This document shows, piece after piece, positions 7,456 to 24,621 of a DNA stretch of 64,000 nt (positions within the stretch are counted from its first letter, which is position 1; each line of letters begins with the position of its first letter). The translations under genes and the position numbers were made by a program. Source of the DNA: Spartobacteria bacterium (GTDB taxonomy: Bacteria; Verrucomicrobiota; Verrucomicrobiia; Chthoniobacterales; UBA10450); NCBI GenBank assembly GCA_003167555.1, contig PMSN01000029.1, forward strand, positions 1 through 64,000. The letters run 5' to 3'. The notes below the pieces were generated by a model that saw only the letters and a list, made by a program, of their open reading frames with translations, had not been told where the DNA came from and searched no databases.

Positions 7456-9194
7456 GGGAGTTTGACCGGTTTGCGCAGATCGAGACGCAGCTCGTAAGGA
7501 AAAGCCCACTCGCTGTTGTTGGGCGTCGTCGGCTTGATCACTTTCGCCTGATTGTTGGGATCGATCGCAAACCAGGGCGAACTCGTCAGGTTGCGGAAAT
7601 AATCGACCACCACTTCCTGCTGCTTTGGATTAAACAAATAAAGACCGCGCACGAGCAACCCATCGATAGCGGGGGCGGTCGGCGTGGCGCCTGGCCGCGG
7701 AGGTGATGGGGCTGGGACCGGAGTCGTCGCGGCGATCGTGCGCGTATCCGGCACGCCGAGCGGCTTTCCGCCGGAAGTGGGCACGAGCTCGGTGATCCAG
7801 ATGTCTTCCTTCGGCAAACGCGCGTTCAGTTCTTCGAGAATCTGCGGCCAGAAATTTCGCTCGTTGATCGCGGCAACCAAGGGCGCGGATTGATTATCGA
7901 GCGCGGCAGTTTGCTTGCGCACTTCGTTCAGTTGCGCTTCGAGCCGCCGCAATGCGTCGACCCTTTCTTCGAGCCGATCGGCCGCGCTCTCTTCCACCTG
8001 CGTCGCGCGCCAGTAGTATGCCCCCCAGCCGAGCAATCCGATGATGACGCACGCTGCCGCGAGCACAAAATAAGGACGACGCCGTTCCAGTTCCTGACGC
8101 CGGATGACGCTGACGGGTCGAAGGTTTAACTGGATCGGGCATTCGGTTGCGACCCGAAGAGCAAGACCTACCGGTTCCGCCAACAAGTGGGCTGATCGCA
8201 AGATTTCCTCGGCATCCGCAGCGTCTGCAATCGCGACCTTGCGAAGTGGATTAAAGAAGTGGACCGGCTGCAGTAGTTTCTCCTGGAAAAACTCCCGGAT
8301 GTGGGCCGTGCTCGCGACGCCTCCGGAGAGAAAAGCGCGCTCTGGAGCATGGCCTTGTTGCTGGGTGCAATAATGACTGACCGATCGCATTACCTCCGCG
8401 TGCAAGCGCGTCATGGTGTTGCGCACAATTCTTGTCACCCGCGCCACGTCTGCCCCCGGCGGCCCGGCACAAGCCTGCGATGGACTTAAAGAGCCGTCTC
8501 GTTTTTTGCGAAACTCGGCCGCGGCCAAGGGCTCGTCGAATTCCTTCGCGATGCCGGACGTTATGGAACTCCCTCCGATCGAGACACTGCGGGTGAAAAT
8601 CCTTCCCGGCTCGATGAAGAGAAGATTCGTCGTGCGCGCGCCTATATCGATGAGCAGCGAACAACCGCCCAAGTCGCCGTAGTTATAACAAAACGCGTTA
8701 TAGAGCGCCATCGTCGCGAGATCGACAATGGATGGGCGCAGACCCGTTTCTTCGACGGCGCGATTGAGCTTCTCGAGCCAGTCGGCCTTGATGGCAACAA
8801 GGACAACCTGGATTTGTTCGCCGGCGCCGCCACCGACGATCTGATAATCCCAAACCACTTCATCGATTGGGAACGGAACGTTCTGTTGCGCCTCGAAGAA
8901 GATGATCCGCTCGATCTTTTCTTCCTCGATCGCAGGCAGTCGGACGAAGCGCGAAAAGACCATCTCCTCCGCGACCGTGTAGACGACGTTTCCGCCCCTG
9001 ATCCGCAGATCGGCCATCATTTCCCGTAGCGCCGCGACGATCTGCACGGAGCGCATCGCTTCGCTCGCTGGTTCGAGGTCGCGAGACCGGTAACCGGACA
9101 AGATCAAGCCGCCTTGCGGTTGGGCGTGGAACTTAGCCAGCTCGATGCTCTGCGCACCGATGTTAAGCGTTGTGATGTGTGCCCGGGGAGACAT
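7452..9194 (-). CDS. PilM-PilN fusion, type IV pilus inner-membrane assembly protein
   Basis: About 580 residues from start MSPRAHITTLNIG (an in-frame upstream Met adds 12). Residues about 1-360 are an actin-like PilM ATPase: LNIGAQSIELAKF for the phosphate-1 loop, FVRLPAIEEEKIERII, DYQIVGGG, LLIDIGARTTNLLFIE for phosphate-2 and AFLSGGVAST for the adenosine motif. A membrane segment follows (YFVLAAACVIIGLLGWGAYY), then a coiled coil and a PilN-like domain (GLYLFNPKQQEVVVDYFRNL). Fusion of the cytoplasmic and membrane partners into one chain matches Amuc_1101. It is the first gene of the operon; its stop overlaps the next start. Confidence 0.85.
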   Translation of the reverse strand: MSPRAHITTLNIGAQSIELAKFHAQPQGGLILSGYRSRDLEPASEAMRSVQIVAALREMMADLRIRGGNVVYTVAEEMVFSRFVRLPAIEEEKIERIIFFEAQQNVPFPIDEVVWDYQIVGGGAGEQIQVVLVAIKADWLEKLNRAVEETGLRPSIVDLATMALYNAFCYNYGDLGGCSLLIDIGARTTNLLFIEPGRIFTRSVSIGGSSITSGIAKEFDEPLAAAEFRKKRDGSLSPSQACAGPPGADVARVTRIVRNTMTRLHAEVMRSVSHYCTQQQGHAPERAFLSGGVASTAHIREFFQEKLLQPVHFFNPLRKVAIADAADAEEILRSAHLLAEPVGLALRVATECPIQLNLRPVSVIRRQELERRRPYFVLAAACVIIGLLGWGAYYWRATQVEESAADRLEERVDALRRLEAQLNEVRKQTAALDNQSAPLVAAINERNFWPQILEELNARLPKEDIWITELVPTSGGKPLGVPDTRTIAATTPVPAPSPPRPGATPTAPAIDGLLVRGLYLFNPKQQEVVVDYFRNLTSSPWFAIDPNNQAKVIKPTTPNNSEWAFPYELRLDLRKPVKLP

Positions 9195-9283
9195 TGCCAG
9201 CCGTACACTTCCACAGTTGATGGTCCCCACGCCAGCATAAAACCGCGAAATTTTAGAAGGCCGCGGTCTGATCGGATTAGCCC

Positions 9284-9441
9284 AGGTAGGGATGTCGCGC
9301 TGCGGCGTCTGCGCCCAGTGGCCAGCGCGTTCCCCCCCCTTGTCATCCTGAGCGGAGCGGAGTCGAAGGACCTCTAATATCCGCGAGCGTAGCGAGAATC
9401 TGTTCGCACCTTACGGACGCCGCAGCGCGGCGTCCCTACCT
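9284..9441. repeat. Inverted repeat region with REP-like sequence
   Basis: Left arm near 9284-9309 (AGGTAGGGATGTCGCGCTGC then GGCGTC) and right arm near 9416-9441 (GACGCCGCAGCGCGGCGTCC then CTACCT) are almost complementary and about 105 bases apart. Between them lies TCATCCTGAGCGGAGCGGAG followed by TCGAAGGACC, which belongs to the same repeat type as 36823-36917. The right arm overlaps the stop codon of the decarboxylase gene. Confidence 0.6.
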
Positions 9442-10414
9442 ATTGGATCCGTTCCCCCAGCTCGCCGCGCTCGAGGCACCCGCGGAAATACTCGATTGTG
9501 CGCGTGATTCCTTCGTCGAACTCCACCTTCGGTTCCCAGCCCAGGACTTTCCGCGCCCGGGTGATATCGGGCTGCCGCACTTTCGGATCGTCCACCGGCA
9601 ACGGTTTGTATTCGATCTGCGATTTCGTCCCGGTGATGCGAATGATCTCTTCGGCGAACTGCTTGATCGTCATCTCGCGCGGGTTGCCGATATTGACCGG
9701 CTCGTGAAAATCGCTCATGGCGAGCCGGAAAATCCCGTCGATCAAATCGGACACGTAACAAAAGGAGCGCGTCTGCGAGCCGTCGCCGAAAATGGTGAGC
9801 GGCGTCCCGCCGAGCGCCTGCCCGATAAATGCCGGCACCACGCGCCCGTCGCGCAACCGCATCCGCGGGCCGTAGGTGTTGAAGATGCGGACGATCTTCG
9901 TGTCCATGCCGTGATAGCGGTGGTAGGCCATCGTCATCGCCTCCGCGAAACGCTTCGCTTCATCGTAAACTCCGCGCGGCCCAATCGGATTGACGTTGCC
10001 CCAGTAATCTTCTGTTTGCGGGTGGACCAGCGGATCGCCATAGCATTCTGAGGTCGAGGCCAGGAGAAAGGCCGCCTTCTTCGCTTTCGCGAGACCAAGC
10101 GTGTTATGCGTCCCGAGCGCGCCGACTTTCAGCGTGGGGATCGGCAATTCGAGGTAATCGATCGGGCTGGCCGGCGAGGCGAAATGGAAAACGTAATCGA
10201 GTTTTTCTTCCGGGAGGAAGATGTAGCTCGAGACGTTGTGTTTGACGAAGCGGTAATTCTCGTTCCCGGCGAGGTGCGCGATGTTCGCGAGATTGCCGGT
10301 GATGAGATTATCGATCGCGATGACGCGATGCCCTTCCGCCAGGAGCCGGTCGGTGAGGTGCGACCCCAGAAACCCCGCGCCCCCCGTGACGACTGAAATC
10401 TTTTGCGAAGCCAT
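9440..10414 (-). CDS. UDP-glucuronate decarboxylase (UDP-xylose synthase)
   Basis: A 324-residue extended short-chain dehydrogenase. The NAD-binding motif is [17 protein letters not shown] at about 8-24, followed by IDNLITGN; the catalytic triad is seen in [12 protein letters not shown] (Thr/Ser) and [12 protein letters not shown] (YxxxK). Substrate-site blocks [20 protein letters not shown] and [19 protein letters not shown] are typical of UXS. It converts UDP-glucuronate to UDP-xylose in the cytoplasm for surface polysaccharide. Length is normal for the bacterial enzyme. No sugar-pathway partner lies next to it. The leader and first codons are partly duplicated at about 17017-17095. Confidence 0.9.
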
Positions 10415-10475
10415 GCTCCGGTGTTTTTAGGCCGCCAAGCGAAAGTTGGCGAGCGATTTTCATTTCGAGGCCAGC
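10403..10475. repeat. Duplicated leader segment, copy 1
   Basis: The stretch GAAGCCATGCTCCGGTGTTT and onward (ending near GGCGAGCGATTTTCATTTC) matches 17030-17095 with small differences. It covers the first codons and the upstream leader of the decarboxylase gene. Confidence 0.55.
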
Positions 10476-10564
10476 TCGGTCCCAGTGTAGCGTCCAATTC
10501 GAAATCTTGGGTGCAAAGAGGTTCGATTCAAATTCGGTGGCGCTCAAACAGCGCAAAAAACCCC

Positions 10565-10942
10565 TTAGAGCTTGTAAATTCCCGGCTCCGTCGGCTTGGT
10601 TTGCACGACCGGAGAAGGTTCAAGCTTGTTTCGAATCGCCTCCGTCCTTTTATCGGAATCAGGCTTTGGCGCTTCGAGTGTTGACGCAATCCGCCGAAGA
10701 TAACTGGCGATCTTCGTGAGCAACGCCAGGCCGCTCGAAAACCCGATCAGCACAAACCCACCCGTCAGGGCCGATATGCCGAGGGGAAATTCCGCTACGT
10801 TAGACGAATCAGCCAATCCAGCGATGATGCAAAGGCTGCCAACGATAACCGAGATAACGCCAATCACCTTCAGCACGGTCCGCGCAGCCGGTTCCGGCAC
10901 TTCATCTTTGTTTCGGTCCACGGTCGAAGCTTTATACGGCAT
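10565..10942 (-). CDS. Hypothetical two-segment membrane protein
   Basis: A 125-residue protein with two membrane segments, VLKVIGVISVIVGSLCIIAG at about 24-43 and LGISALTGGFVLIGFSSGLA at about 53-75, a basic helix after the second (LRRIASTLEAPKPDSDKRTE) and a Pro-rich tail. The overall plan (short N-tail, hairpin of two helices, cytoplasmic tail) is that of many unannotated small inner-membrane proteins. No family is recognised. It stands alone, divergent from the gene at 11029. Confidence 0.65.
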   Translation of the reverse strand: MPYKASTVDRNKDEVPEPAARTVLKVIGVISVIVGSLCIIAGLADSSNVAEFPLGISALTGGFVLIGFSSGLALLTKIASYLRRIASTLEAPKPDSDKRTEAIRNKLEPSPVVQTKPTEPGIYKL

Positions 10943-11028
10943 CTAGTATCGAATTGGCGACAAAATTACGGTCGTCAAAGATTGACGTAGAGGCCGTGAC
11001 TGGTTAAACGGTACTGCTTTCCTCCCCA

Positions 11029-12285
11029 ATGACGGAGCGCATTTACGTCTCGCGAAACGGAAAGGAATTTGGCGTTTTTTCCCGGGCTCAGGCTGAACGC
11101 GCATTCCGAGATTTGGAACTCCATCACACAGATTGGGCTCGCAAATCGAAAGACGACCCATGGCGACCCATCGGCGAGGTAATTACATTGCTCGCGAACG
11201 AGGAGCAAAAAGCAGCGTTACGTTTTCTGGGGAGCAACGTTCCGCGCGGGATATCGCATGAGGCTGCTGAACAGAGAATCGCGCAACTAAGTTTTGAGAG
11301 CGGAAAGACCGAGCAATTGCGATTGTGGCGAGCGCGATACGCATTCGTGTGGCGCATGAGTTTCGGCTGGGACCGTGAGAACGACGTAGGGCGACGGATG
11401 TACCAGCCGCACGAGGAACAGATTGACGCAGCTGCGGCCACTTTGCAGAAAGAACGACCCGGCGCGCTGGAAACCATATCCCGCGATGAATTTTTCACTT
11501 TTGTCGCCGACCGCTACCCCGACCTGCGATCCTGGGCCCACAAACCAGCCACCCCGAAGCAACTAAAATATCTCCACGATCTTGGCGTGCAGTTTCGAAG
11601 TGACATCCTGGCTGGGGAAGCCTCAAACCTCATTGATGAACATATTCAGACGCACCCAGAACCAATCACCGATGGACAGCGTCGACGATTGAAGTTTTAC
11701 GGCATAGCTGAAGCCGGTCTCACGCGTTATGCGGCATCGCAGGCAATTGATGGTTACATAGGCGAGAATCCCGAATCGGAGATTGCCTATCAACGATGGA
11801 AAGTCGCCCAAGGGCTTCCGGCAAGCCCGCCTCGTCCCGGGTCCCTCTCCAACGAGATATTTCGCAAAAAGGGTCTTTTTTTCGTTTGCACTCCGTGGCG
11901 TGTTCTCGTTTGGATTTCGGCCGGTTTGGTCGCCGTCCTATTTCTCGTTGCCCTCTGGCCTTCTAAACCCAGCGATCGACTTCATTCGACTGATCGCGGC
12001 GCCTCATTAAAGCAGCATAATTCGCAGCCCCGGGTCGCTCCGTCGACAACGGAACCATCCGCGGAGGAGTCACGCCTCGCGGTTGACCAATGGACACCTC
12101 CACCAGCAGAATTCGTGAGATTGACGGCGGCCGTATCCCTACATAACTCGCGCGGCAAAGAAGTGAAACGACTTCCCGCGGGGAAGCGGCTACGAGTAAC
12201 GAAACGCGCGGGCGATGAGATCATCATCAATTACCTTGGCGATGATTACACAATCTCAGCCGCATCTACCGAACCATCACAATGA
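11029..12285 (+). CDS. Hypothetical protein with N-terminal GYF_2-like domain and one membrane segment
   Basis: A 418-residue protein. Residues 1-60 ([20 protein letters not shown], then [16 protein letters not shown]) look like the GYF_2 domain, in which a displayed peptide-like strand ends with W-x-P. Two helical repeats follow around [13 protein letters not shown] and [13 protein letters not shown], which resemble each other. A membrane segment lies at about 285-310 ([19 protein letters not shown]). The tail ends in an SH3-like run ([20 protein letters not shown]). The order suggests a cytoplasmic sensor-like N-terminus and an outside SH3-type domain. Function unknown. Confidence 0.7.
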
Positions 12286-12299
12286 AGCGCAACGGCCCC

Positions 12300-12672
12300 T
12301 TAGGAATCGCCTGGTAGTCCTAGCCGGGACTTGATCTCATACTTCAATGCTTGGACAAGGATGCCGAAGGTGAAAGAAGCCGCGGGCCTCATCACCTTTT
12401 CCCTTACCTTTTTCCAGATCGTGTCGTCTCTAGCGGCGTCGATAAAATCGTGACCCTGCCACGTGAGGCGAAGAATTGCGCCCTTAGATGGAATACCCTT
12501 TTCATCATTGCTCACCAGCGCGATGATCAGCCCCGCTTCCTGCATAATCGCGATGTGGTGAGCCCTTGTGGGGAGGTCGTATTTTTTGGCCGCTAAATCG
12601 TACTCACCACCGTCCTGGCCAGCTTCCGTCCTCAATAGGAGCAGGCCGAACGAGATCCATATCTCTCTTCAT
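12300..12672 (-). pseudogene. DUF2513-type protein, frameshifted near its N-terminus
   Basis: The frame 12300-12635 encodes GEYDLAAKKYDL, RAHHIAIMQEAGLII, LRLTWQGHDFIDAARDD and WKKVREKVM, the pattern I associate with DUF2513. That family normally begins MKRDMDLVR. Exactly this start is found at 12672 on the minus strand but one base out of frame: reading on from MKRDMDLVR needs the loss of one C near 12645-12648 to give LLLLRTEAGQDGGEYD. So the gene is either broken by a +1 insertion or the base is a sequencing error. If translated from a TTG at 12635 it would lack its first helix. Confidence 0.65.
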
Positions 12673-12871
12673 GATGTTAATCTTGCACGCGGAGGAGCAT
12701 TACGGAAATTTGAGATTGCGACTCGAAAGTTGGCGAGAACGAAGTGAGTCAACATGCGCACCGCCCTCGATTGTAGTGGCGAGAAAATTAACCACGGGGA
12801 TCACACCCGACGGGTGAGACTTATTCCGTCACGCTGACCGCTGTAAAAACTCCTCGTTAATCGCTGATAGC

Positions 12872-12916
12872 GCCGAGAGGAATGACGGCGATTTGGAAAT
12901 CGCCGCTCCTTGATTT
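12872..12916. repeat. Dispersed short repeat, copy 1
   Basis: GAATGACGGCGATTTGGAAA followed by TCGCCGCTCCTTGA. The two halves GGCGATTT and AAATCGCC are complementary. The same two halves, spaced about 45 bases apart, recur at 14220-14285. Confidence 0.55.
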
Positions 12917-12961
12917 CGCTCGGTCGAGCCAGCGCGGCTTCCCGCCGCGAATCTCGCGTCC

Positions 12962-14060
12962 CTATTTTCTTACGAGCTCGCAGTCTTTCAATTGGACGCC
13001 CATCTGCAAAATGGAACCCACACAGCGGCCGCGCACGGTCACTTGCTGGTCTTCCTTTAGAGCCGAGACCGCGGCGGTGGCCGAGACTGGAAATTTACAA
13101 ACGATGCAATCCTTGCCGTCACTATTCTTCAAGACAACGCTAACGTCATTCTTCACTAGCGGGCTGACCCCAGCGAAATAGACCGGGCCAGTAACAGTTA
13201 CCGTCTTATCTTTGTAAAGCTTGTCCGCGCCGGCTTCATCGGCCTTGTAGGCCTGGCAGAGGGCGCTCGAAGAGATGGCAGGTTGTTGTTCCTGAGAAGA
13301 GGTTAGCTGGCTGCTTAGGGCTCATCTCGGCCTGACTATTCTGTTGACCGAGAGCCGCGAGGTAGTCAATCGCAAATTCTTCGGCTATGCCAAAGCCAGT
13401 TTTGGGCAGGCCCTTGCTGCTGTTATGCAGTGCCTCAGCTTCAAAATAATAAATGCCATCTGTCCACCTAACCTCTTCGTAGTCGTTGCTGCCGCGCGTG
13501 CAGTCGAAATTATTGAAATCGCCGCTGTGGGTAACGACAATCTCGCCGCCATTTTGGTGGCGCCATTTCTTAACGATTTTCTCCGGCCCCCCGAAGTCGT
13601 CATTGTCGCTTTTCTTGCCCTTACATGGAGGCAGCTTTACTTTGGCCGCTTGCGCTTCAGGAATCGCTCGAGCCAACTTCTTCTTGAAGAAAGCTTGTGC
13701 TTTCTCGGGAGACGCAAATTCAAAAATTTCCAAACCAACATCCGTGTTATAGCTGTGGAATTTGTCATATCTTCCGTCTTGATAAGCGAATTTGTAGTCA
13801 ACATTCTTAACATACCCCTCGGATGAATCAAAAACGCTGAATGATTGAGTTTGATAGAATTTCTTCGTGTCAATTATCGAGAATTTCTCGAATCCAGGAG
13901 CCGGCGGATATTTACTCGAAGGGTTAGGAGTGTGTCTTGGGTGGGCGTTTTCAGTTGGCGCGCCGGTCAAGCTCCTAAGTCCACTCCAAAGGAACCCAGA
14001 GCCCAGAGCGATGGCGACAATTACAATTCTGCATGAGCCTGGTTTAGTTGTTCTTTTCAT
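12962..14060 (-). pseudogene. Exported protein with C-terminal tRNA_anti-like (OB) domain, frameshifted
   Basis: The frame from 14060 (MKRTTKPGSCRIVIVAIALG, signal or anchor) to 13236 encodes an unknown domain with FEKFSIIDTKKFYQTQSFSV, ASPEKAQAFFKKKLARAI and GGEIVVTHSGDFNNFDC. The next frame, open from 13321 to 12962 but without a usable start codon, encodes ADEAGADKLYKDKTVTVTGP, then KDCIVCKFP and LKEDQQVTVRGRCVGSILQM, a tRNA_anti-like OB fold of the exported type. The simplest reading is one two-domain protein broken by a single-base shift between about 13285 and 13321. Two overlapping genes are possible but the lack of a start speaks against it. Confidence 0.6.
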
Positions 14061-14196
14061 TTGTCTGTGTGTGATATCGCCGGCGGCGATTCCAGCGAGG
14101 GTGAATGAAGCCTGAGCAGGTGTAAAGACTATTAATATACGACCATCTTCTTGCCTTCTTCGTCTGCGGGTTGAGAACCTGTTCTTACTCAAGGAA

Positions 14197-14287
14197 CGGC
14201 GGTCTTCAGACCGCCGAGAAGAATGACGGCGATTTGCCTCCTTCGCCGAGGCTACGGCGAGCCGGGGGAAATCGCCGCTCCTTGAGA
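14197..14287. repeat. Dispersed short repeat, copy 2, with adjacent hairpin
   Basis: CGGCGGTCTTCAGACCGCCG (14207-14226 region) is a tight hairpin, followed by GAATGACGGCGATTTGCC and, 40 bases on, GGAAATCGCCGCTCCTTGAG. The outer CTCAAGGA and TCCTTGAG ends are also complementary. It shares its halves with 12872-12916 and lies between two minus-strand genes. Confidence 0.6.
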
Positions 14288-14309
14288 AAGCAGCTTTTCA
14301 AGGAGCCTA

Positions 14310-15290
14310 TTATTCCGCAGACTTGATCGAGGCTATAATGTCGTGCTGATGTTCCAGCGCGGGTTTTCCGGTGCTCTGCGGCGTCAAGCCAAAGACATAG
14401 AAATAATAATCCCCGTCCAGCGAGAAGATCGCGAGGTCGAAAAAGAAAGGCTTCCCTTTCATGTTACCCTCGTAGGTTGTAATGAAAGCCTTGTTCCCAG
14501 CGATCGTCATCTCACTCGGCGGTTTCGTGCATTTCAGGTCGGTGAACTTAATGTCCTTAGTGATTTCTTCGGAGCGGCGTTGCGCGAACCCTTTCACAGT
14601 GGCATCACCGTGCATGCTCAATCCCCTGAGGGCAAAATCCCAGAGGGTGGAAATATCTTCGCCGGTCGTGGTGGAGATGAGCAGGGTGCCGTCTCCACGA
14701 ATGTTCGCCTTCCAGCCTTTTGGCAGCTCGAGGGTGAAGAAGGGATGGTCTTTCGGGAAACCTACTGTCCCAGCGGCAAGGGTCGAGGCAGCGATCGATT
14801 CCTTGAGCGCCTGGTTGCGAGTATAATCCGCGGTGCTGGTATAGCTCCGGAGGCTCACCATTAGAAAATATTTTTTTTCGTCGAAAGAAAAGGCGGTGGC
14901 CGTGTAGAAAATCCTCAAGCCGCCTTTTTTGCCCTCGGCCTCGACGGCAAAGCCCTTGATCCCTTTGAGCGATTCTTCAGCTACGGGAGAACGCTTGATA
15001 ACTTCAATCGCGAGCGCACGCAATTTGCTTTCGACATATTGTTCGACAAATTTTCCGGCTGACTCGCGATCGTGCGCCTCGCCCGGAGACAATTCAATGA
15101 AAACGAAAGAGGCGAGATCTTTCGGGTCTTTCGTCCTGAGAACCATCGCGTCAGAGTCGACCTTCACGGTCATATCTTCTGGGACGGTGATGGTGAAGAC
15201 AGAATCGTATTTCGGAAACGCGGCCGTATCAGCGGAGAGAGTGGCGCCAAGAGCTAGAAGAACAAGAAGGATGGTGGTTAGCTTTCTCAT
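14310..15290 (-). CDS. Hypothetical exported protein with two PsbP-like halves
   Basis: A 326-residue protein with a signal peptide (MRKLTTILLVLLALGATLSA). The mature part has two similar halves: FTITVPEDMTVKVDSDAMVL near 33-52 and FTLELPKGWKANIRGDGTLL near 185-204, each followed by a strand-rich domain and a late GLRIFYTATAFSFDEKKYFL or KGKPFFFDLAIFSLDGDYYF block. This is the fold pattern of PsbP/DUF1795-like proteins, seen here as an internal duplication. Probably periplasmic. No operon partner and no function assigned. Confidence 0.75.
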   Translation of the reverse strand: MRKLTTILLVLLALGATLSADTAAFPKYDSVFTITVPEDMTVKVDSDAMVLRTKDPKDLASFVFIELSPGEAHDRESAGKFVEQYVESKLRALAIEVIKRSPVAEESLKGIKGFAVEAEGKKGGLRIFYTATAFSFDEKKYFLMVSLRSYTSTADYTRNQALKESIAASTLAAGTVGFPKDHPFFTLELPKGWKANIRGDGTLLISTTTGEDISTLWDFALRGLSMHGDATVKGFAQRRSEEITKDIKFTDLKCTKPPSEMTIAGNKAFITTYEGNMKGKPFFFDLAIFSLDGDYYFYVFGLTPQSTGKPALEHQHDIIASIKSAE

Positions 15291-15457
15291 CCTTCGATTC
15301 TCTAAAGTGGAAAAGCTTTAGACAAGATATTTCGGATTCCTCCGAGCCATGACCACTTCCCACCAGCGGGAAAGTTGGGGAGACGGGACCCGATCCGCCG
15401 CGGCCCAGGAGAGAACCGCGGCGGATAATCTACAGGAGATTGCGGGCCGGGACGTTC

Positions 15458-16552
15458 TTAGAAGGAGATGCGGATGCCGAGCTGAATTTTCCAGCGCGAA
15501 TCGAGATCGTTCTCGGATTGAATGGTGGCTTTCGATCCAACGCCGGTGTAGCTGTAGAGGCCGGTGGTGCTATTGAGAGTCACCGGTTGCGGCGTGCCGA
15601 AGGAGCTGTAGCGCTTGATTTGACCCCAGTTGTCATCAAGCAGGTTGGTGAAATCAAGAATGTCGGCGGTAACTTCCGCCCAAACCCATTTCACCGGAAT
15701 CCGCTGCGAGAAGTGCAGGTCAAGACGATTGATCCACGGATCGCGTCCCCCGTTACGGGGGGCGATCGACCCGCGATAGTTCCTAAGGAAGTTGTTGTGG
15801 GTGATGTAATCATTGTAGGCGTACCAGTTCGTGCCGGTGGGACCTCCCACGAACTTCGCGCCCATCGGATCGGTCAAACCCGTTGGAACGTAGACCAAAT
15901 CGTTGCTGAACTGGCCGTCGCCATTGGCATCGCCGTTGTAGAGGACGCTGTAAGGATGACCCGAGGCTCCTTCGTAAACTGTGCCGATAGTGGTGTCCCA
16001 TCCTTTCTTAAAGGCAAAGGTGTAGGTCAGGACGGCCAGGACGCGATGCTTCAATTCAAAGTCCGAGTGGCTCAAGACGTCCGTGTTGGGATTGCCGGCC
16101 ACGGGGTTGAAACCGAAATTCGACGAAGCCTGGCTCGAGGTGGTGGGGTTCACATCGTAGGCCTGGCCATAGGTGTAAGCGAGCTTGCTGTACCAACCAT
16201 CACCCGGGTCCGGCCGCTCGAGTTGCGCCGTCAAGTTATAGGAATAGCCGCGGTGGGTGTTTTTGAGCAGGATAATGCTACCGAAGTGGGGGTCCCCGGC
16301 AAATCCACCAAAGATCGGGCGGCCATCTTCGGGCCGGACTCCGGTCTGCGGCTTCAGATTGAGATTCGTCTCGGTCACGGCCTCGAGGCTCTTCGTGTAG
16401 AGGCCTTCGACCGTCGCGATCAGGCCAAAAGGCAGCTTCTGATCGACCGCCAGGCTGTTTCGCCAACTTGAAGGCGTCTCGAAGTTGGTATCAGTGAGGT
16501 CGATTTCCGGAGCGACGGCCGTTCCTCCTCCCCCTGGGCAGCGAGGCGCGCT
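15458..16552 (-). pseudogene. C-terminal fragment of a TonB-dependent (Oar-like) outer-membrane receptor
   Basis: About 365 residues of beta-barrel sequence from APEIDLTDTNFETPSSWRNS through LAVDQKLPFGLIATVEGLYT, alternating aromatic strands, to the last strand WKIQLGIRISF ending in Phe, as outer-membrane proteins do. These blocks match the last third of Oar-type TonB receptors. The plug, the TonB box and most of the barrel are absent: the frame runs back into another gene fragment (a nucleoside transporter) with no start codon of its own. It cannot form a transporter. Confidence 0.75.
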
Positions 16553-16589
16553 GTGGACATGCCGGTCGTCATGAGCGCCGCGCTGGTGA

Positions 16590-16976
16590 TCAAACCCCTT
16601 TCTGCAAGACGCCCCAATAATAGAATAACGACGAGAGCGCCGAGATGAGGATGATCGTCGCCGTGACCGAGATCGCGAAGACGTAGGCGCCGGAGGGGCC
16701 GAATGTTTTGCGGAGCATTTCACCATCGGCCAATGGACCGAAGACCATCTTCGCGCCGTCATAGGCGTAGGTGTTGAGTTGATCCATCACAACCTGCGCG
16801 CCCTGGAAAAGCCGCAAACCGATCGGCGTTTTCAGAATGAAAATCGCGAAGACAAACTGGAGGACCATGCCCCAGATGACGGTGCGCCAGGGGAACTGCT
16901 TGCGATTGTTGGACAACAACCACGCGCACGCGAGCATGGCCACGAGGCCTAACACGCTGATCAGTTGCAGCGGCAT
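16590..16976 (-). pseudogene. N-terminal fragment of a concentrative nucleoside transporter (NupC-like)
   Basis: About 128 residues from MPLQLISVLGLVAMLACAWL, with blocks NNRKQFPWRTVIWGMVLQFV, FAIFILKTPIG and the helix with ISALSSLFYYWGVLQKGV, characteristic of CNT (NupC) transporters. Full proteins have about 400 residues and continue QKVV... through the transport core; here the frame stops right after LQKGV and TonB-receptor sequence begins within 40 bases. Only three or so membrane segments remain, so it is non-functional. The joint marks a large deletion or an assembly chimera. Confidence 0.75.
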
Positions 16977-17016
16977 GTGATCCCTTCGCAACGAAGCACG
17001 ATGGCGAGGACTGAAA

Positions 17017-17095
17017 CTATTTGCGAACCCGAAGCCATGCTGCCGGTGTTTCTAAATCGCCGCAAAAATAATGGCGAGTGATTTCCATTCATTAA
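17017..17095. repeat. Duplicated leader segment, copy 2
   Basis: GAAGCCATGCTGCCGGTGTT and the following 50 bases closely resemble 10409-10475, the first codons and leader of the UDP-glucuronate decarboxylase gene. Here a short frame starting MASGSQIVSV dies after about 20 codons, so it is a copied 5' end without a gene. Confidence 0.55.
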
Positions 17096-17190
17096 TCGAT
17101 GATCGCGAAGGGATACGAGACATCTGGTAGAATTGCGATCAAAGAGCTCCCGTGGCATAGGTGCTCCTGTCTGCGGAAGAGGGAAATTGC

Positions 17191-18507
17191 TTGAAGATAA
17201 CCAAAAAAAAACTCCTGATCCTCGCGCTGCTTCTTATCGGCGTCGCACTGCTCGCTCTGTTTGGGCTGGGCGGGAGCGACAGCGTCTCTTATTCGACCTC
17301 TCTAGTTGAAAAAGGCGATATCTTCCAGGTGGTCGATGCGACCGGCACGATCAACGCGGTCACGACCGTGCAAGTGGGATCGCAAGTCTCGGGAGTGATT
17401 TCCGAGTTGCGCGCGGACTTCAATTCGCATGTTTCCAAGGGCGACGTGATCGCGCAGATCGCCCCGGAGCTTTTCGAGGGTGCCTTTGCTCAAGCCAAGG
17501 CGGATTTGGCGAATGCCGAGGCGAATGTGGCGGTCGCGGCCGCGAACACCGTCAAGGCCAAGGCGGCCCAGGCGCAAATGAAGGCAGACTACGACCGCAA
17601 CGTTGGCCTGACCAAGAGCGGCGCCGTAAGTCAGCAGGCGTTCGAGCTGGCGAAGGCGAATGCGGAAAGCGCGGATGCACAGGTGGCCGCCGCGCAGGCG
17701 CAGGAATTGCAAGCGCGCGCCCAAGTGGATCAAAAACGCGCGGCCGTGCAAGTGGCGCAGACGAACCTCGATTACACGACGATTCGCGCGCCTATCGATG
17801 GCACGGTGGTCGCCCGCACGGTCGACGTCGGCCAGACCGTGGCGGCCTCCTTGCAAGCGCCGACGTTATTCACCATCGCGCAGGACCTGACGAAGATGCA
17901 GGTCTATGCAAAGACTGACGAGTCCGACGTGGGCGGGATGAAGCGCGGTCAGAAGGTCACTTTCAAGGTCGATGCTTATCCGCGAGAGACTTTTTCGGGG
18001 ACGGTGTCGCAGGTCCGGATGAATTCCACTGTCGTGCAAAACGTAGTTACGTACGACACGATCATCGAGTTCGATAATCCGGAACTGAAACTCTTCCCGG
18101 GTATGACCGCCTACGTCAACATTCCCGTGGCCACGGCGACCGGTGTCATCAAAGTTCCCAATGCAGCGCTGCGTTTCAAACCGGATTTGCCGGCAAGCGA
18201 ACTCCGGGCGCTCTACCAGAAGTTCGGCCTTCCAGAAGAAGGCGACAGCGCGAAAGCCTCGGAGCGTTCTCCTGCGCCGAACAAGCCTGCTTCAGGTCCC
18301 AGGAACGAAGCTCGAATTGTTTGGAAGCTGGTTTCGCGCAAGGCGCTCGAACCGGTCCGCATCAAGACCGGCATCACCGATCATACCAACACGGAACTGC
18401 TGCAGACATTGAATGGGAGTCTGAAACCTGGCGATGCCCTGCTTACTGGCGTGATGCAAAGTCGCTCGGAAAAATCTTCCGGCCCCGGCGGCCCACGGCG
18501 GCCGTAG
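17191..18507 (+). CDS. MacA-type periplasmic adaptor (membrane fusion protein)
   Basis: About 438 residues from a TTG start preceded by GAAGAGGG; a GTG ten codons upstream is an alternative. An N-terminal anchor (LLILALLLIGVALLALFGLG) is followed by the lipoyl half VTTVQVGSQVSGVISELRAD, a long alpha-hairpin (about 85-190, Ala/Lys-rich), the second lipoyl half TTIRAPIDGTVVARTVDVGQ and a beta-barrel domain (VGGMKRGQKVTFKVDAYPRE). It bridges an inner-membrane permease and an outer-membrane channel. It heads a four-gene operon with an ATPase and two permeases; no TolC gene is present here. Confidence 0.9.
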   Translation: MKITKKKLLILALLLIGVALLALFGLGGSDSVSYSTSLVEKGDIFQVVDATGTINAVTTVQVGSQVSGVISELRADFNSHVSKGDVIAQIAPELFEGAFAQAKADLANAEANVAVAAANTVKAKAAQAQMKADYDRNVGLTKSGAVSQQAFELAKANAESADAQVAAAQAQELQARAQVDQKRAAVQVAQTNLDYTTIRAPIDGTVVARTVDVGQTVAASLQAPTLFTIAQDLTKMQVYAKTDESDVGGMKRGQKVTFKVDAYPRETFSGTVSQVRMNSTVVQNVVTYDTIIEFDNPELKLFPGMTAYVNIPVATATGVIKVPNAALRFKPDLPASELRALYQKFGLPEEGDSAKASERSPAPNKPASGPRNEARIVWKLVSRKALEPVRIKTGITDHTNTELLQTLNGSLKPGDALLTGVMQSRSEKSSGPGGPRRP

Positions 18508-18527
18508 AATTCCACTGTGCACAAGTA

Positions 18528-19316
18528 ATGAGCGCTTTAGTGGCAACTTCCGAATCTCCGGTTACCGGAGCTCATTCGCACGCGAGCGTTCTCCGCGTGG
18601 AGGAGCTGCATAAGTATTATCAGATGGGGGAGAACAAGGTCCACGCGTTGCGCGGCGTGAACGTCGAGATCAATCGCGGAGAGTTTGTCGCGATCATGGG
18701 CGCAAGCGGCAGTGGCAAGTCGACCTTCATGAACATCCTGGGTTGCCTCGACAAGCCCAGCTCGGGCCGTTACCTGCTTGAAGGCATTGATGTCGCCGGG
18801 CTGGACAAGACACAGCTAGCTGGCATTCGGAACCGCAAGATCGGGTTCGTCTTTCAAGGCTTCAATCTCCTATCCCGCACCACCGCACTCGAAAATACAG
18901 AACTACCAACTCTCTACGCACGCCTCGATAAAGCGGAAAGGCGCGCGCGCGCGGTTGAGTCACTCCGCCTGGTCGGGCTCGCGGATCGAACAGATCATTT
19001 TCCGTCGCAACTTTCCGGCGGCCAGCAACAGCGAGTCGCCATTGCTCGTGCTCTCGTGAATCGGCCGTCGATCCTTCTCGCCGATGAACCGACTGGGAAC
19101 CTCGATAGTAGAACTTCAGTAGAGGTGATGGAGATTTTCCAGGCACTTAACGACAAGGGCCTAACCATTATTCTTGTGACTCATGAGACCGATATCGCCA
19201 ACTTCGCCCGGCGCAGCATTGTTTTTCGCGACGGCACGATCCGTCGCGACGAAAGTATTTCGAGACGGTCCTTCGCCGCGGAGCTGATCAGGACAATGCC
19301 GGCGCTAGGGGACTAG
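18528..19316 (+). CDS. ABC transporter ATP-binding protein, MacB/LolD class
   Basis: 262 residues from ATG at 18528. Walker [17 protein letters not shown] at about 60, Q-loop [16 protein letters not shown], signature [15 protein letters not shown], Walker [18 protein letters not shown] and switch His in VTHETD are all present. The opening [20 protein letters not shown] is typical of the MacB/FtsE/LolD group. It supplies energy for the two permeases that follow at 7- and 35-base spacing. The C-terminal 25 residues are Arg-rich. Confidence 0.9.
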
Positions 19317-19323
19317 GAGAGTC

Positions 19324-20544
19324 ATGGACTTACTTTCCACGCTCCAGATAGCCGCCCGCGCGCTGCTTCGAAATAAAATGCGGTCGATCTTGACGATGCT
19401 CGGCATCATCATCGGTGTCGGGGCGGTGATAGCGATGATAGGAATAGGCCAGGGCGCCGATCAGACGGTGCAGAAACAAATCGCGACCCTTGGATCGAAC
19501 ATGCTCTTCATCAGTTCGGGCTCGGCCACTGGCGGCGGGCTTCGCATGGGCAATGGCAGCACCAAGACATTGCTCGAATCGGACGTGACGGCGATCGCGC
19601 GAGAATGCCCCGCTGTGGTGGCGGCAGCGCCCGGGACGCAAACATCGGCCCAGATCGTCTATGAAGGAGACAATTGGGGAACGCGAGTAGTCGGGACAAC
19701 CCCGGATTACTTCGATATCCGCACATGGCCATTCCAAAGTGGGACAAGTTTCACCCAGGACGATGTCACGAATGCCGCGAACGTGGCCGTGATCGGCGAG
19801 ACTGTGCGAAAGAACCTCTTCCCTTCCACCGAGGCCGTAGGGAAGAAGATCCGCATTGGAACTTTGCCCTTCCTGGTGGTCGGTGTTCTGATCGCGAAAG
19901 GACAATCGGCCGCGCTCAGCGAAGATCAGGACGACACGATCATCGCTCCGCTTACAACCGTGCAGAAAAAGATAACCGGTCAACCGTGGTTACGGTTTGC
20001 CATGGCCTCGGCCAGATCGCGATCGTCGAGCTATGCCGCGCAGCAACAGATCCAGGCTCTCTTGCGCGATCGTCATCGGATCCGCGCCGGCCAGACAGAT
20101 GACTTCACCGTTCGAAATCTTGCCGACATTGCCGATGTTGCTTCAGAAGCGAGCAAGGTCATGACCGTGCTTCTGGGCTCGATCGGCGGAGTGTCGCTTT
20201 TCGTAGGCGGCCTTGGGATCATGAATATCATGCTTGTTTCCGTGACGGAACGAACCCGCGAGATCGGCATTCGCATCGCGATCGGTGCAACCGAAGGCGA
20301 CGTGCAGCGGCAGTTCTTGTTTGAAGCTATCGCCATAAGCCTGCTCGGGGGCGTCATCGGAATTCTAACGGGGGTAGGAGCTTCGTTTATCATTTCCTCG
20401 ACGGCGGGATGGCCCATAGCTGTCTCTACTACCGCCATCTTGGTCGCCACCGTAGTTTCAATCGCGATTGGCGTGTTCTTTGGTTACTACCCCGCCCAAA
20501 AGGCGGCGCGGTTGGATCCTATCGAAGCGCTTCGTTATGAGTAG
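19324..20544 (+). CDS. MacB-type ABC transporter permease, paralogue 1
   Basis: A 406-residue permease: N-terminal helix after ARALLRNKMRSILTMLGIII, a large periplasmic MacB_PCD domain (about 45-240, with TPDYFDIRTWPFQSGTSFTQ) and a C-terminal FtsX domain with three helices (VSLFVGGLGIMNIMLVSVTE, RTREIGIRIAIGATEGDVQR). The final APQKAARLDPIEALRYE-like end is standard. MacB proteins export macrolides, peptides or lipoproteins by a mechanotransmission mechanism; substrate here unknown. Confidence 0.9.
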   Translation: MDLLSTLQIAARALLRNKMRSILTMLGIIIGVGAVIAMIGIGQGADQTVQKQIATLGSNMLFISSGSATGGGLRMGNGSTKTLLESDVTAIARECPAVVAAAPGTQTSAQIVYEGDNWGTRVVGTTPDYFDIRTWPFQSGTSFTQDDVTNAANVAVIGETVRKNLFPSTEAVGKKIRIGTLPFLVVGVLIAKGQSAALSEDQDDTIIAPLTTVQKKITGQPWLRFAMASARSRSSSYAAQQQIQALLRDRHRIRAGQTDDFTVRNLADIADVASEASKVMTVLLGSIGGVSLFVGGLGIMNIMLVSVTERTREIGIRIAIGATEGDVQRQFLFEAIAISLLGGVIGILTGVGASFIISSTAGWPIAVSTTAILVATVVSIAIGVFFGYYPAQKAARLDPIEALRYE

Positions 20545-20571
20545 GAGCGTTGTAACCTAACGAGACCAGCA

Positions 20572-21789
20572 ATGTTCTTTGACACGATCATGCGGGAAGC
20601 CTTCAAGGCGTTGCTGCGGAACAAAATCCGAAGTGTCTTGACGATGCTGGGCATCATCGCGGGCGTCGGTTCGTTCATCTGCGTGGTAGGCGTCGGCGAG
20701 GCAGGATCAAAGCGGGTCGCAGACCAGCTCCATAACGTCGGAGACAACCTCGTCTGGCTCGAAGCGGGCGGCCGCGCGCGGAATGGCGTGCGCGTCGGCA
20801 GCAGAGGAAGCAAGACGCTTACGCTCGGCGATTGCCGGGCCGTGCTCGACCAAGTGCCGGGGATCAAGAGCGCTTCTCCCAATGTGGATGGACACATTCA
20901 GGTCATCTCCGGCAACTCGAATTGGGGAACGCAGTTTCGCGGAGTGAGCCCGGATTATTTCGAGATCAGAAAATGGCGAATCGCGCTGGGATCGCCTTTC
21001 ATCGAGGACGACGTCGAACAGGCCTCGACCGTTTGCGTGATCGGAGAGACCATCGCGTCCAACTTATTCGGAACCGCCAATCCGGTCGGCGAAGTAATCC
21101 GAGTTCAGGGCGTCCCATTCAAAGTGCTCGGCGTGCTCCAAGCCAAGGGATTCTCCGCCACGGGGCAGGATCAAGACGACTTCCTGGTTATGCCGATCAC
21201 GACCGCGCAGAAACGGATCACAGGCCAAGAGTGGCTGGATGACGTTTACTTCTCGGCCACGCGCCGGGAAGACATTCCGGAAGCGGCCAAACGCATTATC
21301 GCGCTCGTGCGGGAACGGCATCACTTGCGCCCTGGCGAAGAGGACGATTTCAACATCCGCACGCCGGAAGAAATTATTCGCGCGCAACTGGCCGCCGCAA
21401 ATGTTTTCACTCTCTTGCTCGGAAGCGCGGCGTCGTTGTCGCTCCTCGTGGGCGGCATCGGCATCATGAACATCATGATGGTCTCGGTGACGGAACGCAC
21501 GCGCGAGATTGGCGTGCGCATGGCTGTCGGCGCAACCGACCGCGATATTCGAATGCAGTTCCTGAGCGAAGCGATCGTCATGAGCTTGATCGGCGGAGCG
21601 ATGGGCGTCGCGGCAGGAATTGCCGGTTCCTTCCTGTTGCGAAGTACGCTGCATTGGGAAATGCGGCTGTCCTTCAACATCATAATCATCGCAGCGCTTT
21701 TCTCCGCCGGGGTCGGGATCTTCTTCGGTTATTATCCGGCACACAAGGCCTCGCAGTTAAACCCGATTGAAGGTCTGCGCTTCGAATGA
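20572..21789 (+). CDS. MacB-type ABC transporter permease, paralogue 2
   Basis: A 405-residue permease with the same plan as its upstream neighbour: EAFKALLRNKIRSVLTMLGI, a PCD domain with SPDYFEIRKWRIALGSPFIE, and an FtsX domain with LLVGGIGIMNIMMVSVTERT and YYPAHKASQLNPIEGLRFE. The two proteins differ throughout, so this is an old tandem duplication. Because one ATPase and one adaptor serve both, they may form a heterodimer rather than two homodimers. Its TGA overlaps the start of the next gene (ATGA). Confidence 0.9.
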   Translation: MFFDTIMREAFKALLRNKIRSVLTMLGIIAGVGSFICVVGVGEAGSKRVADQLHNVGDNLVWLEAGGRARNGVRVGSRGSKTLTLGDCRAVLDQVPGIKSASPNVDGHIQVISGNSNWGTQFRGVSPDYFEIRKWRIALGSPFIEDDVEQASTVCVIGETIASNLFGTANPVGEVIRVQGVPFKVLGVLQAKGFSATGQDQDDFLVMPITTAQKRITGQEWLDDVYFSATRREDIPEAAKRIIALVRERHHLRPGEEDDFNIRTPEEIIRAQLAAANVFTLLLGSAASLSLLVGGIGIMNIMMVSVTERTREIGVRMAVGATDRDIRMQFLSEAIVMSLIGGAMGVAAGIAGSFLLRSTLHWEMRLSFNIIIIAALFSAGVGIFFGYYPAHKASQLNPIEGLRFE

Positions 21790-23219
21790 TGGGCGCTCCT
21801 CCGGCCGTCATCGCTCTGCCGCTTGGACCCTATAAAATGAAGCGCAGGATTTTGCTCCTTTCGCTTCTTTCGTTGCTGCAATTCGTGCTGGTGCACTTTG
21901 TCCTGATCCAGCAGTTCCCTAACTCTGGTGACGAACAGGCTTATCTGTACGAGGCGCAATTATTTTCCCACGGACAGCTCTATGCGGAAGACCCGATCTA
22001 CGACCGGGCACATCCGCTCAACAAGTTCGTGGCCGCGGATGCGATGGACGATACAGAGGGCCGCCGCTTCTCGAAATACGATCCGGGCTGGCCCGCGTTG
22101 CTTTCGCTTGGCGCCCGGCTGCGGATTGAAGGGCTGGTTGCGCCATTGCTCGGAGCGCTGACGGTTTTCCTGCTTCTCTCCTACGTGCGCAAACGGATCG
22201 GCGCTGAGTTTGTAGCTACTACCTGGTGGCTTGTGACGATTTGTTCGTTCTTCTTTCTCAGTGTCGCCAACTTCGGAACGCATACCGCTTCCATGGCATT
22301 TCTTTTTGGCGCATTCTTTCTCTACGACGGCACGCTCGAACGCCCACCGGAACATTGCCGCTGGCGACTGCTCAGTGTGGGACTGCTTCTCGGCTATTGT
22401 TCTTTGATCCGCTACATTGATTGGATCCCTCTGCTGGGATGGATTGCTTTCGATTTGTTGCGGCAGAGAAAAACCAAGGGACTTCTCCTGGTTTTGCTTG
22501 GGTTCGGCCTGCTCGCCTTCCTTCATTTGATTTACAATAAGCTTCTTACTGGAGACGCGCTCACACCGCCGGGCGTCCATTTCGCGAGAGGAAGTGTGGA
22601 GGTCCACTTCGGCTTTTTCCTGACGGGCTTCGAAACAACCGCGATCCGGCTTCGTCGAGTGCTCTACGCTTTTCCACCGGCCATTTTGCTTCTCCTATGC
22701 CTGACTCGGTCCGGCCGGAGCGTGAGACTGAGATCGTACCTGACGCTTTTCGCGCTCAATGTGGCCGTCTACTTTCTCTATGCGGGAGGCGTTGCCGGGC
22801 CGGGACCGCGCTATTATTTCCCTTACTTTCCATTTCTCTTTCTCGCGGTCGTTGAGGTTTACCGGCTGACCCGCGGGCAGAGGCCCGTGAAAATCGGATG
22901 GAGCGCGGCCATCGCGTCTCTCGTCGTGTGCAGTTTCATTTATGCGGACGGTCAAACTCGCGATATCTACAAACGACGAGATCTCGAGCGCACGGTCGCC
23001 ACCATTCCGGAGAAGAAGAAGATCATCTTGCTCGAGAGCGGGACCTACAAGATGGAGATACCCGATCTCGTCCGGAATCCCCCCGATTTGTGGTCCGCCG
23101 ATCTGCTCTACTTTGCTTATGGCGGCGGTGGGGGAATCGCCGACCTCCTGCAGCGCTTTCCCGAGCATAGCGTTTATCTCTATCGTTATCCTGGCTCACT
23201 TAGACGGTGGAAGGGATAG
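21786..23219 (+). CDS. GT-C-type polytopic membrane protein (glycosyltransferase-like)
   Basis: A 477-residue protein with about ten membrane segments. After the first helix (ILLLSLLSLLQFVLVHFVLI) comes the loop FPNSGDEQAYLYEAQLFSHG with an acidic pair, as in ArnT/PMT-type GT-C glycosyltransferases, and later RYYFPYFPFLFLAVVEVYRL. The C-terminal 100 residues are soluble. The family assignment rests on architecture only. The start overlaps the permease stop by four bases (ATGA), so translation is coupled; a second Met at codon 18 (MKRRILL) is an alternative start. A lipid-linked sugar donor would be expected. Confidence 0.7.
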   Translation: MMGAPPAVIALPLGPYKMKRRILLLSLLSLLQFVLVHFVLIQQFPNSGDEQAYLYEAQLFSHGQLYAEDPIYDRAHPLNKFVAADAMDDTEGRRFSKYDPGWPALLSLGARLRIEGLVAPLLGALTVFLLLSYVRKRIGAEFVATTWWLVTICSFFFLSVANFGTHTASMAFLFGAFFLYDGTLERPPEHCRWRLLSVGLLLGYCSLIRYIDWIPLLGWIAFDLLRQRKTKGLLLVLLGFGLLAFLHLIYNKLLTGDALTPPGVHFARGSVEVHFGFFLTGFETTAIRLRRVLYAFPPAILLLLCLTRSGRSVRLRSYLTLFALNVAVYFLYAGGVAGPGPRYYFPYFPFLFLAVVEVYRLTRGQRPVKIGWSAAIASLVVCSFIYADGQTRDIYKRRDLERTVATIPEKKKIILLESGTYKMEIPDLVRNPPDLWSADLLYFAYGGGGGIADLLQRFPEHSVYLYRYPGSLRRWKG

Positions 23220-23296
23220 AGAGGGTCAGCTGACCAAAGTGGCCTCAATCTCGCACGCTTTTTTGCGTAATCCCTGAATGAGAGTAGCTTGGGGGT

Positions 23297-23611
23297 ATGA
23301 AAAAGTTCAGCTTGCTCAGTTTTGTAACCGTGGCGCTGCTGGGATTCTCTCCAAATCTGCCCGCAGATTCGCAGCACAGAAGCGACGGTTATTACTACCC
23401 AGATGACTCCACCTATGACAGCCTCGGCAGAGTTCCAACAGTGCGAGACGTGCAGTTAGCGCTGGAAGCGCTAGGTTATTATGTTGGAGATAACCGCGGC
23501 AATTTTGGCTACGAGACTAGAACAGCAGTGAGACGCTATCAACGCGACAGGGGGCTGGCGATAACGGGCAAGATTGACACGGCGGTGCTCAACGCTCTAG
23601 GCCTGCGCTAG
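23297..23611 (+). CDS. Small exported peptidoglycan-binding protein
   Basis: 104 residues: a signal peptide (MKKFSLLSFVTVALLGFSPN to LPADS), a Tyr/Asp-rich spacer, and a PG_binding_1 domain (VRDVQLALEALGYYVGDNRG, TRTAVRRYQRDRGLAITGKI, DTAVLNALGL). The domain binds the cell-wall peptide stem and usually targets enzymes; here it is alone. The C-terminal domain of the protein at 43038-43889 is a relative with the same TATIDRRTLQSLGLG-like ending. It is convergent with the methyltransferase gene downstream. Confidence 0.85.
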   Translation: MKKFSLLSFVTVALLGFSPNLPADSQHRSDGYYYPDDSTYDSLGRVPTVRDVQLALEALGYYVGDNRGNFGYETRTAVRRYQRDRGLAITGKIDTAVLNALGLR

Positions 23612-23664: not shown

Positions 23665-24621
23665 TCAGATCAACTCTGCGAAACTTTGGTAGAGTGCGCG
23701 CCGAATTCGCTTCGCGGCCTTGCCTGTTACTTCAAACGGCTCTTCCACCATGTTCAGAGCAAAAGGCACCAGAGCACCCTTGCGCTCGGGAAGCTCTATG
23801 GCTCCGATGTGAAAGGATCTAATCTTGCGGAAAGGCCATCGATCGAAAAGCCATTCCGCTCCGTAAGGCATTCCTCCCTCCAAGGTTTCTCCGGCTTCTT
23901 CCGCCTTCCTGCCATAGGTGCCTAATTGAATGTCATGCAACACGATCCAGCCGCCGCCTTGGACATGAGGCGCGAGACGGAGCACATCGAGCAACGGCCA
24001 GGGATGGCGGTGATCGGCATCGATGAAGGCGAGGCCGAATTTATCGCGCGTTCCCAGCTCCCGGAGGAAATCCGATTCGCGTTCCGTGTGCACTCGCACA
24101 TTCGAGGCGAGCTCCGGAATCAGTTCGGGAATCTCAAAGCCGATCGGGCGCGTCTCGTCGATGCTGCAATGAGTGCGGGCGTCGATTGTCTCGACCGTAA
24201 TCCCGTTGCTGCTTCCGTGTTGACGATGGATAGCAGCAGCGATGATGGCGGCCGAGAAGCCGGTCAACGTTCCAATCTCGACGACACGGCGAGGCGCGAG
24301 AATGCTGACGAGGGCCGTGAGGAAAAAGTAATCGCGCGAACCGATCCCGCCCGGATATCGGACATCATCCAGGTCCACCATCGCATGGAGGAAATCGAGT
24401 TCGCCGGGCGGAGGAATTTTTCCCGCGCATCCTAATTCTGCCGCGAGAATTCGATACTTGATCTCAAACTGCTCGAAAGACTTGAATTCGCCGATGTCAC
24501 AGTAACCGCCTGCGACATTCGATGGCTCCTTGGTAACAGCGCCTCGTATTTTGCGCGCGACTTCGAGACGGCGGCCGCGAGGCGCATACCGCAAGGCATT
24601 GAAATAACGCGCAAATCGCAA
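23665..24621 (-). CDS. Class I SAM-dependent methyltransferase (Methyltransf_24 type)
   Basis: 318 residues. The SAM motif I is VVEIGTLTGFSAAIIAAAI at about 120-138, followed by an acidic residue in VETIDARTH and motif-4-like FGLAFIDADHRHPWPLLDVL, with GGWIVLHDIQLG after it. This is the pattern of the O-methyltransferase/cephalosporin hydroxylase-like group with a metal-binding Asp-Asp pair. The N-terminal 90 residues are specific to this protein. Substrate unknown; no pathway partner is adjacent. Confidence 0.75.
   Translation of the reverse strand: MRFARYFNALRYAPRGRRLEVARKIRGAVTKEPSNVAGGYCDIGEFKSFEQFEIKYRILAAELGCAGKIPPPGELDFLHAMVDLDDVRYPGGIGSRDYFFLTALVSILAPRRVVEIGTLTGFSAAIIAAAIHRQHGSSNGITVETIDARTHCSIDETRPIGFEIPELIPELASNVRVHTERESDFLRELGTRDKFGLAFIDADHRHPWPLLDVLRLAPHVQGGGWIVLHDIQLGTYGRKAEEAGETLEGGMPYGAEWLFDRWPFRKIRSFHIGAIELPERKGALVPFALNMVEEPFEVTGKAAKRIRRALYQSFAELI

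Follow-up and report, generated by a model that had tools for sequence, protein, structure and literature searches.

In the lineage of this soil bacterium, an ancestral pair formed by a nucleoside transporter gene (nupC) and a TonB-type receptor gene has probably collapsed through a deletion of ~3.1 kb with templated repair, within an interval that appears to have taken up DNA repeatedly. For the most part this would be ordinary gene decay, well recorded, that left two dead gene ends. The window, meaning the whole 64,000-base stretch analysed (the first 64,000 bases of contig 4), belongs to a 4.2-Mb genome of 29 contigs with a completeness score of 98%, labelled W or G000. It was compared within its genus, a member of family f1, using eight genomes including its own.

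Table 1. Features of the window, with positions counted from its first base
Feature	Position	Strand	Basis or remarks
Intact UDP-glucuronate decarboxylase-like gene	9440..10414	-	Pfam Epimerase / GDP_Man_Dehyd; 8/8 genus genomes
45-nt leader in normal position, immediately ahead of the decarboxylase start codon	10415..10459	-	Comparison of gene heads
TonB-type outer-membrane receptor, 3' third, ~357 codons	15458..16531	-	Alignment to relatives; Pfam on the intact G007 protein
Joint piece, origin unproven	16532..16552	-	Reads ARLAAQG, like the receptor signal-peptide end
Direct nupC scrap, 27 nt, codons ALMTTGMST	16553..16579	-	24/27 identical to G007 and G001
Inverted nupC scrap, 21 nt, codons AALVIKP	16577..16597	+	19/21 identical to G007, 19/20 to G001
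CNT-family nucleoside transporter gene (nupC), 5' part, first 126 codons	16598..16977	-	Alignment, Pfam
Copy of ~11 first decarboxylase codons	17006..17038	-	Profile match
Extra 45-nt leader copy, upstream of the nupC head	17040..17084	-	Profile match, alignment
MacA/ABC/MacB-type transporter genes	17191..21789	+	HlyD domains in the first; common to G005 at 81% DNA identity
Methyltransf_24 gene	23665..24621	-	Upstream of the decarboxylase gene at varying distance, 6/8 genus genomes

Truncated gene pair and the joint between its ends

The sequence-only reading had recognised a TonB receptor tail and a nucleoside transporter head at this place, and both identifications were upheld. In DNA alignments, window positions 15457-16531 match the 3' third of the intact 1068-aa receptor gene of G007 at 78%, and positions 15447-16513 match the 1065-aa receptor gene of G001, likewise at 78%; the first ~710 codons present in these relatives are absent from the window. 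Because the tail ORF by itself matches no Pfam family, its identity is taken from the relatives, the intact G007 protein showing OMP_b-brl_4 and CarboxypepD_reg together with TonB_dep_Rec_b-barrel below the cut-off. The closest named records to the tail are a Chthoniobacterales MAG (QHBM01000086.1) and Verrucomicrobia MAG AV80 (QHNH01000015.1). On the transporter side, positions 16598-16978 align at 84-85% (DNA) to the 5' end of intact nupC in G007 and G001, the head matches Pfam Nucleos_tra2_N (E 5.8e-27), and its reading frame hits a stop inside the joint. The G001 nupC ORF measures 419 aa and, used as a query, spans all of the G007 copy at 89%; in the window's own genome the nupC protein is found at a single place and for residues 1-130 only, which leaves no intact copy elsewhere.

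Comparison with close relatives for the intact genes, proposed in that reading as a check, found both genes in G007 and G001, adjacent, in the same order and on the same strand, with nupC preceding the receptor gene. An origin from unrelated fragments brought together, as the reading had supposed, was rejected on this ground. Between the matched stretches lie 3125 nt in G007, 3141 nt in G001 and 66 nt (16532-16597) in the window; the fragments do meet, across a gap somewhat wider than the 40 bases originally given. The comparison with these two relatives shows an apparent loss of ~3.1 kb across the ancestral nupC-receptor pair in the window's lineage, the joint being a deletion inside that pair since the neighbours are intact in both. 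As only two relatives have the intact pair, what the ancestor carried at the joint is known approximately. Collinear intact orthologues in relatives, together with the lack of an intact nupC in the same genome, fit a deletion-derived pseudogene pair. In the proposed history, nupC and then a TonB-type receptor gene would have stood on one strand in the variable interval upstream of the decarboxylase gene, and nupC from about codon 127 on would have been lost along with the receptor's first ~710 codons, most likely in one complex deletion.

Read on the gene strand, the joint opens with GGGTTTGATCACCAGCGCGGC (16597-16577), the reverse complement of the nupC codons for AALVIKP, and continues with GGCGCTCATGACGACCGGCATGTCCAC (16579-16553), the codons for ALMTTGMST in normal orientation. 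The two scraps overlap by 3 nt (GGC); judged from the relatives, the switch-point overlap at the inverted-to-direct step is ~3 nt, the ancestral letters being approximate. For both scraps, none of 1000 shuffles against each relative attained the best score on either strand. Their G007 counterparts (10803-10823 for the inverted piece, 10744-10770 for the direct piece) lie ~100 and ~150 nt past the nupC-side break, where the nupC match stops (10922). The joint thus holds pieces matching nearby sequence, one of them inverted, as templated repair would leave them, and this mosaic suggests templated repair, by template switching or end joining, over crossing over between repeats. Short templated synthesis on nearby strands most likely closed the break, a reading preferred because both pieces originate within ~180 nt of the nupC-side break. 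A Ku gene is encoded in the same genome (G000:C20:106534-107076, E 1.4e-45) and in all eight genus genomes, and among 14 control genomes only Bacillus subtilis matches. With the scraps and a genome-encoded Ku, both template switching and Ku-type end joining with templated filler could have closed the break. In the remaining joint piece, the ARLAAQG reading resembles the receptor signal-peptide end (ARLCAQG in G007, ARLGAQG in G001), a score equalled in 15 of 300 shuffles; this hints that the piece may derive from the receptor's signal peptide.

The age of the loss was approached through dN and dS (Nei-Gojobori count) for the pairs W-G007, W-G001 and G007-G001, in that order below. For the receptor tail, dN was 0.168, 0.145 and 0.180, with dN/dS of 0.265, 0.156 and 0.188; the W-G007 ratio is raised via a lower dS, dN itself not being raised. 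For the nupC head, the corresponding values were 0.053, 0.047 and 0.078 (dN) and 0.060, 0.056 and 0.073 (dN/dS). Amino-acid change is not clearly in excess in the remnants, and the deletion therefore looks recent relative to the divergence of the relatives, or else the joint is an assembly error, since an assembly chimera would be equally expected to give apparent recency.

That assembly or strain mixing made the contig join two alleles or two places, so that no cell has the deletion, is improbable. The genome is in 29 contigs, the joint is known from the assembled sequence alone, and the gene ends lack clear decay, all of which such an error would accommodate. However, assembly joins normally need a shared stretch, which the two gene ends were not seen to have; the joint moreover holds 21-nt inverted and 27-nt direct scraps of the lost DNA. 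The region is also single-copy (a genome-wide DNA search with 15300-17200 found one match place in its own genome), and elsewhere in this genome, with its completeness score of 98%, nothing matches nupC. Successive simple deletions with one small inversion, in place of a single complex event, form a less remote alternative, which is still rather unlikely. Flip aside, the pieces do stand in the order of the ancestor (nupC head, then nupC middle, possibly receptor start, and receptor tail), but deletions by themselves cannot turn the 21-nt piece round, the breakpoints are packed into 66 nt, and no clear decay between steps is visible in the codons on either side. One complex deletion with templated repair is retained as the preferred reading of the joint.

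The transporter gene itself is scattered in distribution. It was found in three of the eight genus genomes, the window's remnant included, and an order-wide search gave matches at E <= 1e-20 in 34 of 213 genomes, with only those three in family f1. The nearest outside relatives of nupC are in family f6 (72-77% identity), an indication that nupC was gained by acquisition. A receptor-nupC pair in another family, as a possible donor, was not seen: the G007 receptor had no match in four wider loci (L133-L136) round the f6 nupC relatives or in ten nupC loci of 3-4 kb. A shared role of the receptor and the transporter in nucleoside uptake is something we only infer. In G007, the gene back to back with nupC (L010 11415-12227) encodes a protein whose start appears TIR-like by eye.

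Extra copies of the decarboxylase leader

The intact gene at the downstream edge of this region, which we take to encode a UDP-glucuronate decarboxylase, is directly preceded by a recognisable leader in all eight genus genomes, although model R1 gives low scores to the main leader of G003 (E 0.00106) and of G002 (E 0.0984). A profile built solely from the eight main heads was searched over 15-20 kb round the gene in seven genomes and over the 64-kb window. Window positions 17006-17086 match this profile at E 3.1e-13, the best reversed-sequence match being E 2.6, and 10418-10464 and 17043-17089 are 70% identical without gaps, so that the copied leader and first codons previously noticed beside the joint are borne out. 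Altogether, seven extra leader copies were found in five genomes: one each in W, G007 (before nupC), G002 and G003, and three in G001. All seven lie on the decarboxylase strand, 0.7-9.4 kb upstream of the gene and inside or edging the variable interval; that of G003 stands ~0.1 kb before the methyltransferase ORF. Decarboxylase codons are carried by four of the seven (~11 in W, 33 in one G001 copy, ~25 in G002 and, doubtfully, perhaps 9 in G003), and are absent from the G007 copy and from two G001 copies. Sub-threshold rows were not counted as copies, namely W 41677-41718 (E 0.041) and a half element before G001 nupC (L011 11543-11567, E 0.28).

In the genomes searched, strong matches to R1 fell at one locus of one genus. 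Across the eight genus genomes, with 150 candidates per genome scored, 19 matches reached E <= 0.1; the 13 at E ~1e-3 or better were all at the decarboxylase locus, and of the six at E 0.03-0.1 five lay elsewhere and one was the G002 decarboxylase leader. As 12 of the 13 matches had trained the model, only the absence of R1 elsewhere is informative. In the family (75 candidates per genome scored), seven of 83 genomes matched, all in the genus, with genus member G002 unmatched, and none of the 75 other family genomes gave a leader at E <= 0.01. No genome-wide leader regulon or dispersed repeat was seen, the strong R1 matches all falling at the decarboxylase locus. An Rfam search over 9000-25000 gave no RNA family at the gathering threshold. 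On the other side of the decarboxylase gene, downstream, lies a 26-nt inverted repeat (9284-9309 / 9416-9441, 92% complementary), and window positions 9407-9440 also match G005 just downstream of that genome's decarboxylase gene.

The leader copies are most simply interpreted as remnants of repeated homology-anchored insertions. Same-strand copies, some with part of the proposed anchor gene, lie upstream of it, the pattern looked for in homology-facilitated illegitimate insertion, and the copies end at different numbers of codons. In the copy tree, none of the 10 inner branches reached the starred level and only a G001 copy pairs with its own main gene (91/92), which gives weak support for separate origins. 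Repeated uptake of DNA into the interval, beside the decarboxylase head, would have left or produced displaced leaders that include some codons, which is what homology-anchored illegitimate insertion is expected to do; the copy before nupC may be a fossil of the decarboxylase leader or may have been captured from there.

Two other roles for the leader have to be set against this one. The element may be a promoter, in which case selection could keep copies without recurrent insertion, and a working promoter module of a local regulon, rather than mainly a recombination scar, is a possible if unlikely account. The start codon of G007 nupC lies 44 nt from the element start, within one base of the position of the decarboxylase start; one G001 copy stops 18 nt short of a 121-aa ORF that opens, by eye, with a lipoprotein-like signal; and an ungapped alignment of 12 main and extra copies gives AAATCGCTCGCCAA-N11-CGAATTAGAAACACCGGAGC, with fixed internal spacing and a variable middle. 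However, the codons carried by the W, G001 and G002 copies would be needless for a promoter, and no sigma-70-like site was found in 16000-17400, a result that says little for this phylum. Recombination between two leader copies or other short repeats was also considered as the maker of the joint, given that two leader copies stand 6.6 kb apart in the stretch, and is very improbable. Neither deletion end coincides with a leader copy, the nearer copy being ~0.4 kb and the farther 6 kb away from the joint, and repeat-mediated deletion between the copies was rejected on these breakpoint positions. Short repeats as drivers of the joint, part of the sequence-only reading, are likewise not supported, the deletion ending at no other repeat seen and the one overlap open to judgement being ~3 nt. 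Repeated homology-anchored insertion is kept as the simplest reading of the copies. A bolder version, suggested by position, is that the genus-specific 45-nt leader serves both as the anchor for a repeated splicing-in of foreign genes and as the promoter they then use, a cassette-like capture without integrase; it is regarded as a long shot.

The variable interval upstream of the decarboxylase gene

How far the methyltransferase gene, taken at its nearer edge, stands from the decarboxylase start differs widely among the genus genomes: ~1.9 kb in G002, 5.7 in G005, 8.3 in G003, 8.8 in G007, 9.4 in G001 and 13.3 in W. The methyltransferase gene was not found in the G004 and G006 stretches, which extend 6 and 9 kb upstream only. 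Gene content differs as well, since the window gene at 14310-15290 is common to G003 (90%), that at 21786-23219 to G001 (73%), and the receptor pair to G001 and G007, while the genes that we take, in part, to be of MacA/ABC/MacB type are those common to G005. Partial genes recur. In G005, only 77 bp near the end of the window's 21786-23219 gene are present (L062 3302-3378), beside the Mac-type genes, possibly another deletion remnant in the same interval. In G002, L059 9087-9539 holds fragments of the window's 11029-12285 ORF and its start, adjoining that genome's copy of the decarboxylase head. No integrase family of Pfam was matched among five scanned window ORFs between 10565 and 15290.

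The varying gap lengths, contents and partial genes support the view of this locus as a hot spot, at the genus level, where genes are gained, lost and partly decayed. The hot spot of recombination using short repeats that had been read from the window accordingly keeps one half, a site of gene turnover with recurrent leader and head copies, and finds no support for the other, the short repeats at the joint. Elsewhere in the interval, a short palindromic REP-like intergenic repeat (GACGGCGATTT..AAATCGCCGCTCCTTGA) occurs at 12871-12914 and 14181-14285, with parts also in the G003, G005 and G007 stretches. REP sequences are among the junction sites reported in E. coli (PMC3161906), and the window's REP-like repeats may on that basis add to the hot spot.

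Relation to known systems and meaning for the organism

In ordinary pseudogene formation, a deletion across two neighbouring genes fuses their truncated ends and loses what lay between; the window's joint differs in being a mosaic and not a clean or microhomology join. It resembles the complex junctions of starving Escherichia coli, ascribed to template switching or microhomology-mediated replication (PMC3161906). Both show more than one novel junction per event and inverted pieces, and apparently also overlaps that run to a few bases or more. In contrast, the inverted pieces described there are mostly kilobases long and arose in the laboratory, whereas the window has scraps of 21 and 27 nt, at a natural deletion whose mechanism we infer. 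For the leader copies, a parallel is found in the T6SS clusters of Vibrio cholerae, for which homology-facilitated illegitimate recombination with sequential displacement has been proposed (PMC5361080). Both cases have a conserved stretch as proposed anchor, incoming DNA beside it and remnants displaced outward; they differ in that the Vibrio remnants are displaced 3' ends and immunity genes, whereas here the displaced part would be a 5' leader and head, and neither toxin nor immunity genes could be recognised. Bacterial genomes also have small variable segments and dimorphic loci, ascribed to segment replacement or insertion hot spots (PMC2884548), which resemble the interval in having one position with differing contents between relatives. 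Unlike those loci, which are described there within species, the interval varies between species of one genus and over several kilobases of genes.

Each element of this locus is of a known kind, and the combination is a good example and a new instance, not a new class. The literature searches returned no paper combining Chthoniobacterales with pseudogene and none on UDP-glucuronate decarboxylase together with Verrucomicrobi and recombination, and no wider claim about what is in print is made.

The locus appears to show a soil bacterium losing a nucleoside transporter and the neighbouring outer-membrane receptor, with a joint that records its own repair. The repeated leader marks a site of gene arrival and departure where no mobile element is obvious. 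If the leader were indeed both anchor and promoter, genes such as nupC would fall under the control of the decarboxylase gene on arrival, and the locus would offer incoming genes a simple way to acquire a working promoter.
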